Under the pieces are notes generated by a model that worked only from the letters and a program-made list of their open reading frames with translations, ran no database searches and was not told where the DNA came from. 61,476 nt of DNA from Campylobacterales bacterium. Lineage in GTDB: Bacteria > Campylobacterota > Campylobacteria > Campylobacterales > Sulfurimonadaceae. A program made the translations under genes and the position numbers. Location: positions 1 to 61,476 of the forward strand of contig JAPLGP010000060.1 of assembly GCA_026390075.1 (NCBI GenBank). Direction: 5' to 3'. Of this stretch, positions 36,508 to 42,915 are shown one piece after another; positions within the stretch are counted from its first letter, which is position 1; each line of letters starts with the position of its first letter.

Positions 36508-37299
36508 CTAATAAGTGTGAATTTCTTGAGGAAACTCTCTTGATATTACTTCATCTGCATAATTTTTAATAGCTTCTTTTACTAAAGCAGAACCATCAAG
36601 ATATTTTTTTACAAATTTTGGTGTAAACTCTTCAAAAAGTCCAAGCATATCGGAAAAAACAAGTACCTGTCCATCGACCCCAGAACCCGCTCCTATTCCT
36701 ATCACGGGAATATTTACACATGCCGTCACTTCCGATGCTACTTCAGCTTTTACACCCTCTATAACCATACAAAACGCTCCAGCTGCTTCCACTGCCTGTG
36801 CGTCTTTTATCAGCTGAATGCGTTCTTCTTCCGTTTTACCTTTGACCTTGTAACCGCCTTCACTTCGAACGGATTGAGGAAGCAAACCTATGTGACCACA
36901 AACCGCAATACCATTGCTGACGAGATGAGCGATAATCTCAGCTTTATCTACACCGCCTTCAATCTTTACACAATCCGCAGAAGTTTCTTGAAAAACTCTT
37001 ATACAATTTTTTAGAGCTTCCTCTTTTGAAGTGTATGTTCCAAAAGGCATATCACAAATAACAAAACTATTTTTTGCCCCATTACAAACTGCGTTCGTGT
37101 GGTATAACATTTGCTCTAAAGTAGCACTCAAGGTGTCGTTTTTACCTGCAAAACTCATGTTCAGACTATCGCCTACTAAAATCATGTCGGAGTTTGGTTC
37201 TAAAAGTCTAGCGAAGAGTGCATCATAAGCAGTAATCATCACAAGAGGTCGAACACCCTTTGCTTTTTTGATAGAAGAAATAGTTATTTTTTTAGTCAT
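36508..37299 (-). CDS. panB: 3-methyl-2-oxobutanoate hydroxymethyltransferase
   Basis: PanB makes ketopantoate for pantothenate and CoA synthesis. The 263-residue TIM barrel shows MITAYDALFARLLE, MILVGDSLNMSFAG (metal-binding Asp), CDMPFGTYTS, VKIEGG and IPVIGIGAGSGVDGQVLVFSD, as in the family. It is the first gene of the panB-ruvB run. A near-match of the iterated motif (ACACATGCC) lies at about 36716-36724. Confidence 0.96.
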   Translation of the reverse strand: MTKKITISSIKKAKGVRPLVMITAYDALFARLLEPNSDMILVGDSLNMSFAGKNDTLSATLEQMLYHTNAVCNGAKNSFVICDMPFGTYTSKEEALKNCIRVFQETSADCVKIEGGVDKAEIIAHLVSNGIAVCGHIGLLPQSVRSEGGYKVKGKTEEERIQLIKDAQAVEAAGAFCMVIEGVKAEVASEVTACVNIPVIGIGAGSGVDGQVLVFSDMLGLFEEFTPKFVKKYLDGSALVKEAIKNYADEVISREFPQEIHTY

Positions 37300-37389
37300 T
37301 ATGAAACTCTTTTTTACTTTTAATAAAGTTTAGTAAAAGAATTTTAACTAAAAATTGCTATAATCTTGACTATATGGGAGAATTATTTT

Positions 37390-37791
37390 ATGGGCATACG
37401 AAGTGACTTAGATGCTAACTTTGATTTTGAGATAGTAGATGAGTTTTTAGACCACTACTCGATGATGGTTGAGAGCATGGAAATCATGATTTTAGATTTA
37501 TCAAACGCGGAGATGTACAGAAGAAGTGTAGATGAGCTTTTTCGTGTTTTTCACAACATCAAATCGGCTTCTGGATATTTAAAAATAATACCTATGCAAA
37601 GATTATCAACACTTGTAGAAGATGAGTTAGAGAAACTAAGAAGTATGGAACCGCCAGTTTCTCAAGAAACAATAACTTGGTTACTCAATATTAGTGACAT
37701 GTTTGCAAAATGGCATGATGACTTTAAACTTGACAACAATCTCAGCAAAATACAATATTCTCTACTTAAAATACCTGATTTGGAACAATAA
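37390..37791 (+). CDS. Hpt (histidine phosphotransfer) domain protein
   Basis: This 133-residue helical protein carries an Hpt site in ELFRVFHNIKSASGYLKI, where the His can be phosphorylated in a multistep phosphorelay or chemotaxis-like pathway. I choose ATG 37390 with GGGAG at 37376-37380; an in-frame TTG at 37366 is less likely. The trpA start TTG follows the stop codon directly. No response regulator or kinase is adjacent, so the partner is unknown. Confidence 0.75.
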   Translation: MGIRSDLDANFDFEIVDEFLDHYSMMVESMEIMILDLSNAEMYRRSVDELFRVFHNIKSASGYLKIIPMQRLSTLVEDELEKLRSMEPPVSQETITWLLNISDMFAKWHDDFKLDNNLSKIQYSLLKIPDLEQ

Positions 37792-38532
37792 TTGAAAAAA
37801 CTAGTAGCATATATAACTTCTGGATATCCAGAAAAATCTTTTAGTGTGGATTTAGCATTGGCTTTGGGCGAGGATGGAGTTGATACTTTGGAGCTTGGAG
37901 TTCCATTTTCTGACCCTGTGGCAGATGGACCTTTAATAGAAAAAGCTAACCATAAGGCTCTTGAACTTGGTTTCAAGTTTAGCCATCTTTTGGAAATTTC
38001 AAAAGAAATAGCACCAAAAGTGGACACACTTTGGATGGGATACTTCAATAGTTTTTATCAACAAAATATGGATAAACTCATTCCACATGCCAAAGAGTTA
38101 GGCATAAATGGTTTAATTATCCCTGATTTACCGCATGAAGAAGCTCTTGCATACAAAAATTTGTTTCATTCCAATGCTATTGCAAATATTAGTTTTGTTG
38201 CACCAACAGATAGTGAAGAAAGAATTAAAGAAATCATAAGTGATTCTCAAAAATTTATCTATATGGTTGCCTATACGGGAATAACTGGTTCTGGAGTGAG
38301 TGAAGATTTACAACCATTTTTGAGCTCTATAAGAAAATATACCGACACTCCTGTTTATGTTGGCTTTGGCGTAAATCAAAAAACTGCAAAAGAAAAAATC
38401 AAAGGTGCAGATGGTGTTATAGTTGGAAGTGCTTTTGTTGAAATACTTTTAAACGATGGACTGAACTATAAACAAAAAATCGATGCATGCAGCGCTTTGG
38501 CAAAAATATTAAAAAATGAGATAAACAACTAA
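37792..38532 (+). CDS. trpA: Tryptophan synthase alpha chain
   Basis: TrpA cleaves indole-3-glycerol phosphate. The 246-residue TIM barrel begins KKLVAYITSGYPEKSFS and has the catalytic block TLELGVPFSDPVADGPLI, GLIIPDLPHEE and VGFGVNQKTAKE. It starts at TTG 37792 right after the Hpt stop codon (TAATTG). trpB is not in the window. One motif copy at 38081-38092 encodes IPHAK. Confidence 0.95.
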   Translation: MKKLVAYITSGYPEKSFSVDLALALGEDGVDTLELGVPFSDPVADGPLIEKANHKALELGFKFSHLLEISKEIAPKVDTLWMGYFNSFYQQNMDKLIPHAKELGINGLIIPDLPHEEALAYKNLFHSNAIANISFVAPTDSEERIKEIISDSQKFIYMVAYTGITGSGVSEDLQPFLSSIRKYTDTPVYVGFGVNQKTAKEKIKGADGVIVGSAFVEILLNDGLNYKQKIDACSALAKILKNEINN

Positions 38533-38545
38533 ATCTTGCCGTTAT

Positions 38546-38556
38546 GGCATGTGGAA
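38546..38556 (-). repeat. Single intergenic copy of the iterated motif
   Basis: GGCATGTGGAA lies 13 bases after trpA without an inverted partner, unlike most intergenic copies. This shows the motif exists outside hairpins too. Confidence 0.7.
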
Positions 38557-38601
38557 ATTTTATGAAACCTTTACACAACACACAACAGATGATTTCGTTC
38601 A

Positions 38602-38681
38602 AGTTCGAGGCAAAACTAAAGTTAAATTGAGGAGTTTACTATAGTAAATGACGAGATTTCATTTTAGTTTTAACGAAGAAA
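38602..38681. repeat. Nested dyad-symmetric element (possible REP/MITE-like repeat)
   Basis: A perfect 14-base palindrome TTTACTATAGTAAA at 38635-38648 is nested within AAAACTAAA (38612-38620) facing TTTAGTTTT (38663-38671), and both share the same centre at 38641.5. The intervening arms match partly. The whole looks like a non-coding palindromic repeat, and similar GAGTTTACTATAGTAAATGA text recurs, as I recall, in related genomes. It could also be a double terminator after trpA. Confidence 0.5.
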
Positions 38682-38706
38682 TTGGGCAAAAGCATCGTTG
38701 TGAGGA

Positions 38707-41064
38707 CTAAGGAACTAACTTGTCCTCTGGCTTACCTATGTAATACCCTTGAATATAATCTGCACCCATCTCTTTTAAAAGTTCTAAACTTTCTTTATTT
38801 TCAACAAATTCAGCAATTGTTTTTAGATTTAAGTCTTTTGCAAAATTGATTATAGTTTGAGTGATTTTTCTTGAGTTTTCATCTGTTGTGACATACTTGA
38901 CTAAAGAAGCATCAATTTTTAAATAGTCAATATTGAGTTCTAAAATATGTGCAAAGTTTGAATAACCACTTCCAAAATCATCTATTGCTATCTTACAGCC
39001 ATACACTTTTACTTTTTGTATAAACTCTTTTAACTCACTGTATCTATCTATTTTTTCACTCTCAAGTATTTCAAACACGACTCTCTCAGGGTGCTTAAAT
39101 TTCTTTAAATTATCTATAATAAACTCTACCGTTACTTTATTTAGAACATCTTCCATTGAAAAGTTTATTGAGAACTCATACTCTTTATCTTTGAAGAATT
39201 CAAATGATTTTGTTAAAATATTTCTTGTTATATTTGGATACAGTTTTGACTTGATGGCTATATCTAAGAAATAAAATGGAGCTATCACGCTTCCATCTTT
39301 TGTAAGAATTCTTGCTAAACACTCATACTTCTCTATTTTTTTGGCTTCAACATTATAGATTGGCTGAAAATATGGAACAATAGAATCATGCTCAATTGCA
39401 TCCTTTAAAAGCCTTACGCCTTCAATATTTTTTATAATATTTTTTTCTATATCTAAAGAATCATCATAAACTACAATATTTTCTTTTTTCTCTTTCGCTA
39501 TTTGCAAAGCCATGTCTGCTTTGACTATCAAAGAAGAGGTATTTGATGCTACTCCACAACTAAATGATATAAAAATATTGTACTCATCTACTTCAAGTTT
39601 TTTCTCCATAATATTTTTAATCACAGCGGATATTCGCTTTACAAATTCCTCAGAACTCATTTCTAAAGTAGTAAGGAGCGCATACTCATCACTCGGTAAT
39701 TTATAAAAAATACTCTCAGCATGATTACATGACTCCATCAGCGTAGTAGCTATTTTCTTTAAAACTTCGTCCGCCACTTTATGCCCGTAAAAATCATTAA
39801 TATCTTTAAATCTATCTATATTTAAAAGTGCCAAATGCAAAGATTTTGACCCTGCATGCACTTTAATATCATCAATTAATTTTTGTCTATTTGGAAGGGA
39901 AGTTAAACTATCTGTTAAAAACGCTTCCTCAAGCTTTTCTTTGTTATAGATTAATTCTGTTAAATCAATCCTAGGTGCAATATATTCTGTAATATTATTA
40001 TGTTCATCAAGAACAGGAATTATGGAAACTTTATTTATAAAAAGAGTTTTATCTTTTCGTAAACCTTTAATAACCCCTTCCCATGTTTTTTTATTTGTAA
40101 TAGTATTCCACATGCCATGAATCATTTCATCACTTGTATCTGGATGTTTAATAATATTGTGACTTTTTCCAATAACTTCTTCTCTTTTATAACCTGTAGA
40201 AGCAAGAAACTTATCATTCACATAGGTTATTTTTCCATCAATATCTGCTTTTGTTAAGGCGGAGCTATTATCAAGTGCTTGGATATAACTATTTAAAAAC
40301 ATATTTTTAGAGCGCAATTCAAGTGTTTTTTGTGTCACTTCTTCTTCTAATAACTTATTAATTTTATTTGATTTTCTAACAAGATAATAAATAAACATAA
40401 ACAAAACTAGTAAAAGCAAAACATCATAAAAAACAGATTTTATAAAACTCTCTATAAAATATTCTCGTACACTTTTTTTAGGAAGTTTAATGCTTACAAT
40501 TCCTCGTACTTCATCAATTTTATAATCATAAGCCATCTCATATTTTTTACTTATAAACTCTGGTGCATCCTCTTTTTTACCATGGCAAAGCAAACATTTT
40601 TGTTCAATTCGCAGAGCATGACCATATTGATAAAAGTCAGAATCACTATCACTAAAGTACTCTTTTTCTTTAGCATTTTCTATAAAATAATTTATTGCTT
40701 TTAATTCTAATGGATCTGCATTGTTTACAATATTTCTAGCACGATCAGAAACAGTTTTTATCGTAATATTTAAAGAATTATTTTTAGAAAATAGAGTTGA
40801 AATTGGCAGTGAACTAAATGCAGGTAGCGCATGAAGCGTTTTTTCATTTAAAGGGATAGTTTTATCTATAAAAAGATTTTGGTAGTAGTTTCTATGCACC
40901 ATGGCATAGCTATTTAGTACTTCAGCTTCTTTTTGGGCAAACTTATATTCTTTATCTTTTGTATCATAATATACGGAAATAATTCTAAAAATTATAACTG
41001 CAATAAAGATAACTGTAACAAAATATAAAGTATTATTATTAAAGAATTTATTTTGTTTACTCAT
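38707..41064 (-). CDS. Haem-c sensor (DUF3365/Tll0287-like) - PAS - GGDEF - EAL signalling protein
   Basis: This 785-residue membrane protein has an N-terminal helix (~11-32), a periplasmic Tll0287/DUF3365-like domain with haem motif CLLCH at 157-161, a second helix near 210-228, a PAS domain (~265-375) like the energy-taxis PAS, a GGDEF domain whose signature reads PSDEY, and an EAL domain with ECLAR and IDDFGSGYS. The GGDEF site is degenerate, so it is likely regulatory; the EAL Glu and Asp residues are kept, so c-di-GMP hydrolysis is plausible. Redox control through haem is inferred. Confidence 0.85.
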   Translation of the reverse strand: MSKQNKFFNNNTLYFVTVIFIAVIIFRIISVYYDTKDKEYKFAQKEAEVLNSYAMVHRNYYQNLFIDKTIPLNEKTLHALPAFSSLPISTLFSKNNSLNITIKTVSDRARNIVNNADPLELKAINYFIENAKEKEYFSDSDSDFYQYGHALRIEQKCLLCHGKKEDAPEFISKKYEMAYDYKIDEVRGIVSIKLPKKSVREYFIESFIKSVFYDVLLLLVLFMFIYYLVRKSNKINKLLEEEVTQKTLELRSKNMFLNSYIQALDNSSALTKADIDGKITYVNDKFLASTGYKREEVIGKSHNIIKHPDTSDEMIHGMWNTITNKKTWEGVIKGLRKDKTLFINKVSIIPVLDEHNNITEYIAPRIDLTELIYNKEKLEEAFLTDSLTSLPNRQKLIDDIKVHAGSKSLHLALLNIDRFKDINDFYGHKVADEVLKKIATTLMESCNHAESIFYKLPSDEYALLTTLEMSSEEFVKRISAVIKNIMEKKLEVDEYNIFISFSCGVASNTSSLIVKADMALQIAKEKKENIVVYDDSLDIEKNIIKNIEGVRLLKDAIEHDSIVPYFQPIYNVEAKKIEKYECLARILTKDGSVIAPFYFLDIAIKSKLYPNITRNILTKSFEFFKDKEYEFSINFSMEDVLNKVTVEFIIDNLKKFKHPERVVFEILESEKIDRYSELKEFIQKVKVYGCKIAIDDFGSGYSNFAHILELNIDYLKIDASLVKYVTTDENSRKITQTIINFAKDLNLKTIAEFVENKESLELLKEMGADYIQGYYIGKPEDKLVP

Positions 41065-41144
41065 GTTGTTTGTTAAAATCCATTATTTAGATTAAGAACA
41101 ATGATACCACAATGAAGTTAAATTATTACAATGATTAAAAAAAA

Positions 41145-41285
41145 TTACTCTTTTTTCAACTGAGAATGAGCTTCTTTGGATACTTTATTTGCTCTCTCAT
41201 AATAAGCATTGTCACAATTTTTTTGAGCGCAACCAACAAAACTGAATAAAACTATTACACCTAAAATTATATAAAATGTACGCAT
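41145..41285 (-). CDS. Small lipoprotein, 46 residues
   Basis: Start ATG 41285 with AAGG upstream; stop at 41145. The sequence MRTFYIILGVIVLFSFVGCA has a lipobox (F-V-G-C, Cys19), then a short charged tail (…DNAYYERANKVSKEAHS…KKE) that could form a helix against peptidoglycan or membrane. It is too small to be noticed in most annotations. The function is unknown; small lipoproteins of this type are common near the cell envelope. Confidence 0.6.
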   Translation of the reverse strand: MRTFYIILGVIVLFSFVGCAQKNCDNAYYERANKVSKEAHSQLKKE

Positions 41286-41316
41286 TTAATACCTTATTTA
41301 TTTGTTTATAAAGATA

Positions 41317-41703
41317 TTAACAAGCGTGTAAATATCTTATATGCGCATAGCGACTTGTGATGTTATCCATTCTTGATGAAACTAAAATAGCGACAACAAA
41401 TGTAGATACAAAAGCATAGGCATAGTCAACATTTAAAATGTATGTAACTAAACCAAAAGCGAAAAGTGGAATGGCCACAAAAAAGAGACCCAGAACCATT
41501 TTTAATTTAATCTTAATATTTTTCTCAAAATTTGAACTTTTTCCTAACATACAAATAAGAGGATTAAATTCTAAATGTTGAAGTTCTTCAAAAAGGTTAA
41601 TTTCCAAACCTCTGTGCTTATAAGCGCTCTCTGTTTTTTCAAAAATGCTCTTTACATTCTTACACAAAAAATCATCCGTTTTTCTTAAAAAAAATCTTAT
41701 CAT
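41317..41703 (-). CDS. Small two-helix membrane protein of unknown function
   Basis: This 128-residue protein has a charged N-terminal half (RKTDDFLCKNVKSIFEKTES) and two membrane helices (~70-90 and ~95-112), ending SRYAHIRYLHAC. I know no family. It lies just upstream of the small lipoprotein in the same direction, 31 bases apart, and the two may form a unit. Bases 41704-41861 hold no gene. Confidence 0.6.
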   Translation of the reverse strand: MIRFFLRKTDDFLCKNVKSIFEKTESAYKHRGLEINLFEELQHLEFNPLICMLGKSSNFEKNIKIKLKMVLGLFFVAIPLFAFGLVTYILNVDYAYAFVSTFVVAILVSSRMDNITSRYAHIRYLHAC

Positions 41704-41861
41704 AATAATACTCCTTACTTATGCGATTTATAACATACACAGCTATATAAAATTCTTAATATATTAAATTAATATTGATTATTTGAATTAAACCAAGAGG
41801 AGTTAAACTACAAAAAGTTATTTAGAGAAAAAGAAAAAAGAAAGGGGTGAAACTTAGAAGA

Positions 41862-42221
41862 TTATTTTCTTCTAAGTTCTTTAATACGAGCTTTTTTACC
41901 AGCAAGTTCACGAAGGTAAAATAGTTTAGCGCGACGAACACGACCACGACGAACTACTGTAATTTCACTAATAGAATCAGTATAAATTGGGAATATTCTT
42001 TCAATACCAATACCATTTGCACCAATTTTACGAACTGTTATAGTTTTACCAGTACCTTGACCTCTTTTTGCAATACAAACACCCTCGTAATTTTGCACAC
42101 GAGTTTTGTCGCCTTCTTTAATAGTTACTGCTAAACGAACAGTATCACCAGCACGAAAGTCTGGAAGTGTTTTCTCAGCAATTTGTGCTTTTTCAAAGTT
42201 TTCTATGTACTTATTTCTCAT
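41862..42221 (-). CDS. rplS: 50S ribosomal protein L19
   Basis: This 119-residue ribosomal protein shows [50 protein letters not shown] and [20 protein letters not shown]. It overlaps the end of trmD by 11 bases and closes the rpsP-khpA-rimM-trmD-rplS operon, which is conserved in most bacteria. Confidence 0.98.
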
Positions 42222-42915
42222 AAGATTTCCTTGTTCTGTGCTTTAAAAGCTGCTCTGGCCTGAAGAACTTAGTCTTACATTCGGACAGGGCTAATTTTAG
42301 TGAGCGAATTTTACTATGGTTTCCCTTTAAGTATTCTGATGGAACACTTTTTTGCTCATAGTTTTGTGGCTTAGAAAAAGAGGGCGCTTCTAAAAGTGGA
42401 GTCTCAAAACTCTCAACACTTAAAGAATCACTATTACCAAGTACACCTTCTACATTTCTACTTATTGCGTCACACATAACTAAAGAGGCTAATTCGCCTC
42501 CTGTTAAAATATAATCACCAATACTAAAAACTTCATCGGCAAACTCTTCAATCACTCTTTCATCAATACCCTCATATCTTCCACTCACGAAAGCAATATG
42601 AGATTTTTTAGCTAATCTTTTTGCATCATTTTGTCTAAAAGGTTTTGCTACTGGTGTTAAAAAAACTATATGAATACTTTTATCACTCGATTTCAAATCA
42701 TTCAAGGCTTCATAAAGAGGCTGAGGGTTCATAACCATTCCAGCTCCGCCACCAACGGCAGTATCATCGACTTTACTATGTTTTGAATCACTGTAATCTC
42801 TAGGATTTAGATACCTTAAAGAAATTAAACCTTTCTCAACTGCTCTCTTTAAAATAGAGTCTTGAAAATAACCCTCTATAAGATTAGAAAAAAGTGTGAC
42901 AAAAGTAAAAGTCAT
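42211..42915 (-). CDS. trmD: tRNA (guanine37-N1)-methyltransferase
   Basis: TrmD makes m1G37 next to the anticodon and prevents frameshifting. The 234-residue SPOUT methyltransferase starts [16 protein letters not shown] and has [32 protein letters not shown] and [14 protein letters not shown], the trefoil-knot SAM site. It overlaps rimM by one base. Confidence 0.97.

Follow-up and report, generated by a model that had tools for sequence, protein, structure and literature searches.

What does a membrane protein that combines a CxxCH-bearing sensor domain with a PAS, a GGDEF and an EAL domain respond to, and does it make or degrade c-di-GMP? This question is raised by a single open reading frame of 785 codons on the minus strand (38707-41064) in the open reading frame listing of the window, i.e., the whole stretch of 61,476 nucleotides analyzed here, a single contig among the 61 that make up the 2.40 Mb genome of a Campylobacterales bacterium (Sulfurimonadaceae). 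The initial annotation had described a Tll0287-like domain with CLLCH, followed by a PAS domain, a GGDEF domain with the signature P-S-D-E-Y and an EAL domain. Pfam confirmed this architecture, with each of the four domain matches above its cut-off. Together with hydropathy, the order along the 785 amino acids is membrane helix, predicted haem-c Cache domain (Tll0287-like), membrane helix, PAS, degenerate GGDEF and EAL. Two hydrophobic stretches, starting at approx. residues 10 and 206, flank the haem domain. The first helix covers approx. residues 10-33 (40966-41037, minus strand as for all features below; Kyte-Doolittle 19-residue mean up to 2.66, helix at residues 10-54 in the model), the second approx. 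residues 206-231 (40372-40449; hydropathy up to 2.47). The domain between them is therefore expected on the periplasmic side, and given this topology and the chemistry of haem c it should face the periplasm.

The sensor domain (residues 41-195, 40480-40944) matches PF11845 (Tll0287-like, sCache_heme) with 96.1 bits at a cut-off of 24.1 (e-value 3.4e-27). A profile was built from the sensor domains of 27 relatives and compared with solved structures; only Tll0287 (5b82) matched convincingly (e-value 4.9e-17). The same structure was the sole Foldseek match at E ≤ 0.001 for a model of the domain (mean pLDDT 67, from two sequences); since the sensor part is of low confidence in both structure models, these were used for no claim about the haem pocket. 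The CLLCH motif (residues 157-161, 40582-40596) does not occur by chance, because the columns of Cys157, Cys160 and His161 are invariant in all 27 sensor-bearing rows of the alignment. Sequence support thus exists for the haem c proposed in the initial annotation, and a covalently bound haem c is predicted. Among the genes of the host is one for a cytochrome c assembly protein (PF01578; frame of 1045 aa).

Within residues 27-201 of the window protein, Cys157 and Cys160 are the sole cysteines, and an axial Cys is absent from this range. Outside CxxCH, none of the His, Met or Cys columns is conserved in half of the 27 sensor rows; the best remaining candidates are position 55, where 13 of the 27 rows share Met55, and position 57, where 12 share His57. 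Regarding the exact order of sensor, PAS, GGDEF and EAL, only one publication of direct relevance was found, a 2026 preprint (PMC12889525). There, the family is named sCache_heme, is enriched in Campylobacterota among other groups, and occurs in fusions to GGDEF/EAL and other outputs. Stand-alone members with Cys/His ligation look redox-active there, while one signaling-type member without axial Cys, from P. azotoformans, binds NO tightly (koff 6.25e-4 per s). The window protein shares with this family (also DUF3365 or Tll0287-like; PDB 5b82) a CxxCH-bearing domain, predicted to be of the Cache type, that is joined to a signaling output, although the two proteins tested in the available part of the preprint were one stand-alone and one TM-HAMP protein, whereas the window protein is a GGDEF-EAL fusion. 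The window protein is, therefore, a fairly ordinary member of an already described family and appears to fit its signaling type without axial Cys. What we add is a family-wide dead GGDEF domain with a retained nucleotide shell, a decaying flavin-type PAS domain and an association with NO metabolism.

Redox state or NO/O2 had been suggested as input, and this choice can be narrowed by analogy to the proteins of PMC12889525. NO appears to be the best-supported ligand, because the window protein resembles the NO-binding relative in lacking the axial Cys and no other ligand column is conserved; redox state would be the main rival and O2 is unlikely. Counting against NO, His57 or Met55 could serve as sixth ligands in the window protein. 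They are also candidate ligands for a periplasmic redox sensor, in which a six-coordinate haem would exchange electrons with periplasmic cytochromes, the Fe(II)/Fe(III) state would set phosphodiesterase activity and NO would bind incidentally. Redox chemistry is natural to haem c, the apparent redox activity of the stand-alone members points in the same direction, and some relatives occur in genomes without NirS or NorB. However, the window protein lacks the axial Cys found in redox-type members, and both His57 and Met55 are poorly conserved for a structural ligand. We consider a redox sensor possible, but rather unlikely.

A second candidate input is the PAS domain (residues 273-370, 39955-40248; Pfam e-value 1.7e-14). 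Its relationship to the flavin type of Aer, NifL and MmoS, and the damage to its site, were overlooked in the initial annotation. By sequence, the nearest solved PAS domains are those of MmoS, NifL and Aer, all of which bind FAD. For Aer, PMC9668731 gives H53, R57, M69, W70, N85 and R115 as flavin contacts. Four of these six are kept as H302, M318, W319 and R365 (corresponding to H53, M69, W70 and R115), and R57 is conservatively replaced by Lys306. N85, which bonds the flavin ring in Aer, is Gly334 in the window protein, and hence the full Aer-type contact set is not present. In the 16 PAS-bearing rows, this column holds Asn in seven, Gly in seven and Trp in two cases. Flavin binding by this PAS domain is, consequently, doubtful. 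If FAD in the cytoplasmic PAS domain were the main input, the protein would follow the state of electron transport as Aer does, and the haem domain would be secondary. The matches to FAD-binding domains and the four kept contacts speak for such a flavin-driven PAS, but it is weakened by the missing Asn and by the change of R57 to Lys, and a sister group of 13 rows has no PAS domain at all. We regard it as improbable.

The GGDEF domain (residues 384-529, 39478-39915; Pfam e-value 1e-21) had been called degenerate on account of its signature, a judgment borne out by the alignment. Instead of the GG[DE]EF of active diguanylate cyclases, the window protein reads P457-S-D-E-Y461 (39682-39696). The first Gly is absent from all 30 aligned rows, the window protein included (Pro in 19, His in seven, Ser in three, Gln in one), and the second position, S458 here, is Gly in only four; D459 and E460 are invariant. 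Two further features had escaped the initial annotation, namely the loss of a metal-binding Asp and the retention of guanine-contact residues. The D-[IL]-D of active cyclases is replaced by N415-I-D (39814-39822), with Asn in place of the first Asp in 29 of 30 rows; in PA0861, MorA and PA0575, the first D of DLD stands at the position of N415. This first Asp is, in our own reading, equivalent to Asp327 of PleD. In PleD, Asp327 and a Glu hold the metals (PMC7696173).

N423 and D432, taken to be the guanine-contact positions, do not vary among the 30 rows. The RxxD inhibitory site, which is dispensable for cyclase activity, is absent from the window protein, where H448-A-E-S451 stands at its position. 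Since the signature Gly and the metal Asp are gone while N423 and D432 are kept, cyclase activity has very probably been lost across the family, whereas the nucleotide-binding shell may remain. An active cyclase was rejected for the window protein on the basis of both losses. The degenerate domain is probably a GTP-responsive regulator, assuming that the kept shell binds GTP. FimX offers a parallel; it has GDSIF where the window protein has PSDEY, and it is not known to carry a membrane haem domain. What both have in common is a degenerate GGDEF ahead of EAL, through which GTP raises the phosphodiesterase activity of FimX, as reported in a review (PMC8846402).

The output is expected from the EAL domain (residues 553-779, 38728-39408; PF00563, e-value 1.6e-63), for which likely active residues had been noted. 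The catalytic-site set that we checked comprises ExLxR, N, E..E, DD, K, E and Q. All of these positions are present in the window protein and invariant in the 30 aligned rows except E755 (29 of 30), in line with the earlier suggestion. The modeled domain matches EAL enzymes with Z of approx. 30, and EAL entries take up the list of fold matches for the full model. Thus, the site looks intact and the domain is a predicted c-di-GMP phosphodiesterase. By sequence, PA0861/RbdA and MorA, both presumably active phosphodiesterases, are among the closest solved relatives, and DosP is also similar over GGDEF-EAL. RbdA (PA0861) of Pseudomonas aeruginosa, a phosphodiesterase with the same PAS-GGDEF-EAL order, is the best sequence match in PDB. 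Its structures (5xgb, 5xgd, 5xge) match the model over 512-517 residues, at a high rmsd that would stem from domain arrangement. RbdA keeps the GGDEF letters in the alignment in contrast to PSDEY of the window protein, and we know of no haem-c sensor in RbdA.

A degenerate GGDEF domain in a membrane-bound protein, with LapD and FimX among the fold matches of the model, might also indicate a LapD/FimX-type c-di-GMP receptor that is catalytically idle and signals by binding, without hydrolysis. However, the conservation of the examined catalytic positions and the presence of presumably active enzymes among the closest solved relatives render this quite improbable. An oxygen sensor controlling the phosphodiesterase, DosP-like with haem c outside the membrane, would suit a host that meets oxygen, as its cbb3 oxidase indicates, and the resemblance of the GGDEF-EAL part to DosP, but it is very unlikely and was disfavored, as neither sCache_heme protein tested in PMC12889525 gave a stable oxy complex.

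With moderate confidence we favor a membrane-bound one-component receptor in which periplasmic haem c binds NO, the dead GGDEF domain regulates and the EAL domain hydrolyzes c-di-GMP. Haem c would sit on the periplasmic Cache domain with no firm sixth ligand from the protein, and NO would take the open site. From there, the signal could travel via the second membrane helix and a linker helix to the PAS domain and on to the GGDEF-EAL pair, altering phosphodiesterase activity. The GGDEF domain would make no c-di-GMP itself, with GTP bound to it as a possible second control, and the EAL domain would hydrolyze the messenger. In a denitrifier that makes periplasmic NO, the gas (and secondarily redox state) would thereby cause c-di-GMP breakdown and, presumably, motility or release from biofilms. 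Activation of the phosphodiesterase by NO is the likelier direction by analogy, because NO-induced dispersal is impaired when rbdA, which encodes the same cytoplasmic domain order, is deleted (PMC7148300).

Such proteins are common among relatives, a point that the initial annotation had missed. In a GGDEF-EAL tree of 31 rows with a paralog from the same genome as outgroup, 14 rows have both the haem domain and PAS (the window protein, L010, L011, L013-L017 and L019-L024), and a group of 13 rows has the haem domain without PAS (L025, L026, L028-L038). The 14 rows with two inputs sit outside the 13-row group or are unresolved at its base. One further row (L012:1342-3255) encodes PAS-GGDEF-EAL, but only a short loop lies between its two membrane helices where the haem domain is expected. 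The tree also holds L018, which is cut by a contig end, and the truncated gene L027. In the latter (genome G146, contig C126), the homolog is split into a 160-aa frame that ends ahead of the CxxCH position and a subsequent 422-aa frame, and it is probably a decaying gene. The presence of both inputs is probably ancestral, with PAS lost and the haem domain lost at least once, in a tree that does not resolve how the window protein joins its neighbors and in which L024 forms a long branch.

In the host genome, contig C59 carries a cluster with NirS-like and NorB-like proteins, named after PDB matches as NCBIfam gave no name for them at E ≤ 1e-20, and with NorC-like and NirJ-like neighbors read by eye. 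NO genes were not found among the open reading frames that neighbor the gene, which counts against an NO receptor. The sensor subfamily was detected in 49 of 151 genomes of the family at E ≤ 1e-30, NirS in 72 and NorB in 65. At E ≤ 1e-60 for the sensor, NirS is present in 33 of 38 sensor-bearing vs. 39 of 113 sensor-less genomes; within the genus, the respective numbers are 26 of 27 and 17 of 31. Five sensor-bearing genomes have no NirS (G004, G012, G020, G033 and G140), two of which are less than 85% complete, and in G140 both NirS and NorB are missing.

The traits NirS and NorB were tested against the sensor on an ffh tree of 61 rows, i.e., 58 genomes of the genus and three outgroup genomes taken from the other 93; G146 was left out due to its truncated sensor. 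The independent-pairs test for NirS gave approx. 3.4 pairs in the same direction and 1.0 in the opposite one (median p 0.625), which is not significant with so few pairs. The likelihood ratios for correlated evolution were 14.95 for NirS and 18.67 for NorB, each above all 80 simulated null sets, in a fit that used the ffh tree alone and had one rate (sensor loss without NirS or NorB) at its bound. As one of the two tree-based tests supports it, the link between the sensor and NO metabolism has moderate support.

A tentative reading, to which we give less credence than to the receptor function itself, is a denitrification-linked NO receptor in which evolution is sorting two inputs, periplasmic haem c and a flavin-type PAS in decay, that feed one dead-GGDEF/live-EAL output. 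The PAS domain of the window protein would be present minus its flavin Asn, the sisters would have dropped PAS or, once, the haem domain, and periplasmic NO made by NirS would trigger c-di-GMP breakdown. If true, NO from denitrification is coupled directly to second-messenger breakdown in the compartment of its production, in widespread sulfur-oxidizing bacteria and bypassing the cytoplasmic H-NOX or NosP route. The relatives without PAS or without the haem domain then provide a natural comparison for which input matters.

The host genome contains further proteins of this kind. The Tll0287-like profile has eight matches, six of them above the cut-off, and EAL has 24. Among the further haem-c proteins are a stand-alone domain (L002), a histidine kinase (L003) and, read by eye, two chemoreceptor-like proteins and one HD-GYP-like protein. 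A second GGDEF-EAL protein (L007) has a sensor match below the cut-off. On contig C38, a Tll0287-like domain is joined to a GGDEF domain with intact VGGEEF (L005); this predicted haem-c diguanylate cyclase is the apparent opposite of the window protein, and with a cyclase and a phosphodiesterase of the haem-c type in the same cell, the two could work against each other.

Some observations concern the surroundings of the gene. Between trpA and the gene lies an imperfect palindrome (38581-38702; RNA fold -40.6 kcal/mol, z -6.5). Of 60 genomes in the genus, 17 (its own included) carry similar copies, with up to 88% identity and up to four per genome, and a right-hand flank with CCAGATACCTGCGG is common to four of ten aligned copies. 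No Rfam match was detected in 37000-42500; the palindrome appears to be a dispersed element, mobile or structured. Directly before trpA, a small protein with an Hpt domain is encoded (37366-37791). Beyond ffh, synteny was compared for seven relatives; in five the contig stops shortly past rplS, and in the remaining two other genes follow. In many relatives (L158-L162 and several other loci), the contig breaks off right behind rplS, approx. 2-3 kb past ffh; this points to a repeat at that site, whereas the window contig continues. Finally, between the gene and rplS, a 128-aa open reading frame that contains a hydrophobic segment and is not matched by Pfam is located at 41317-41703.
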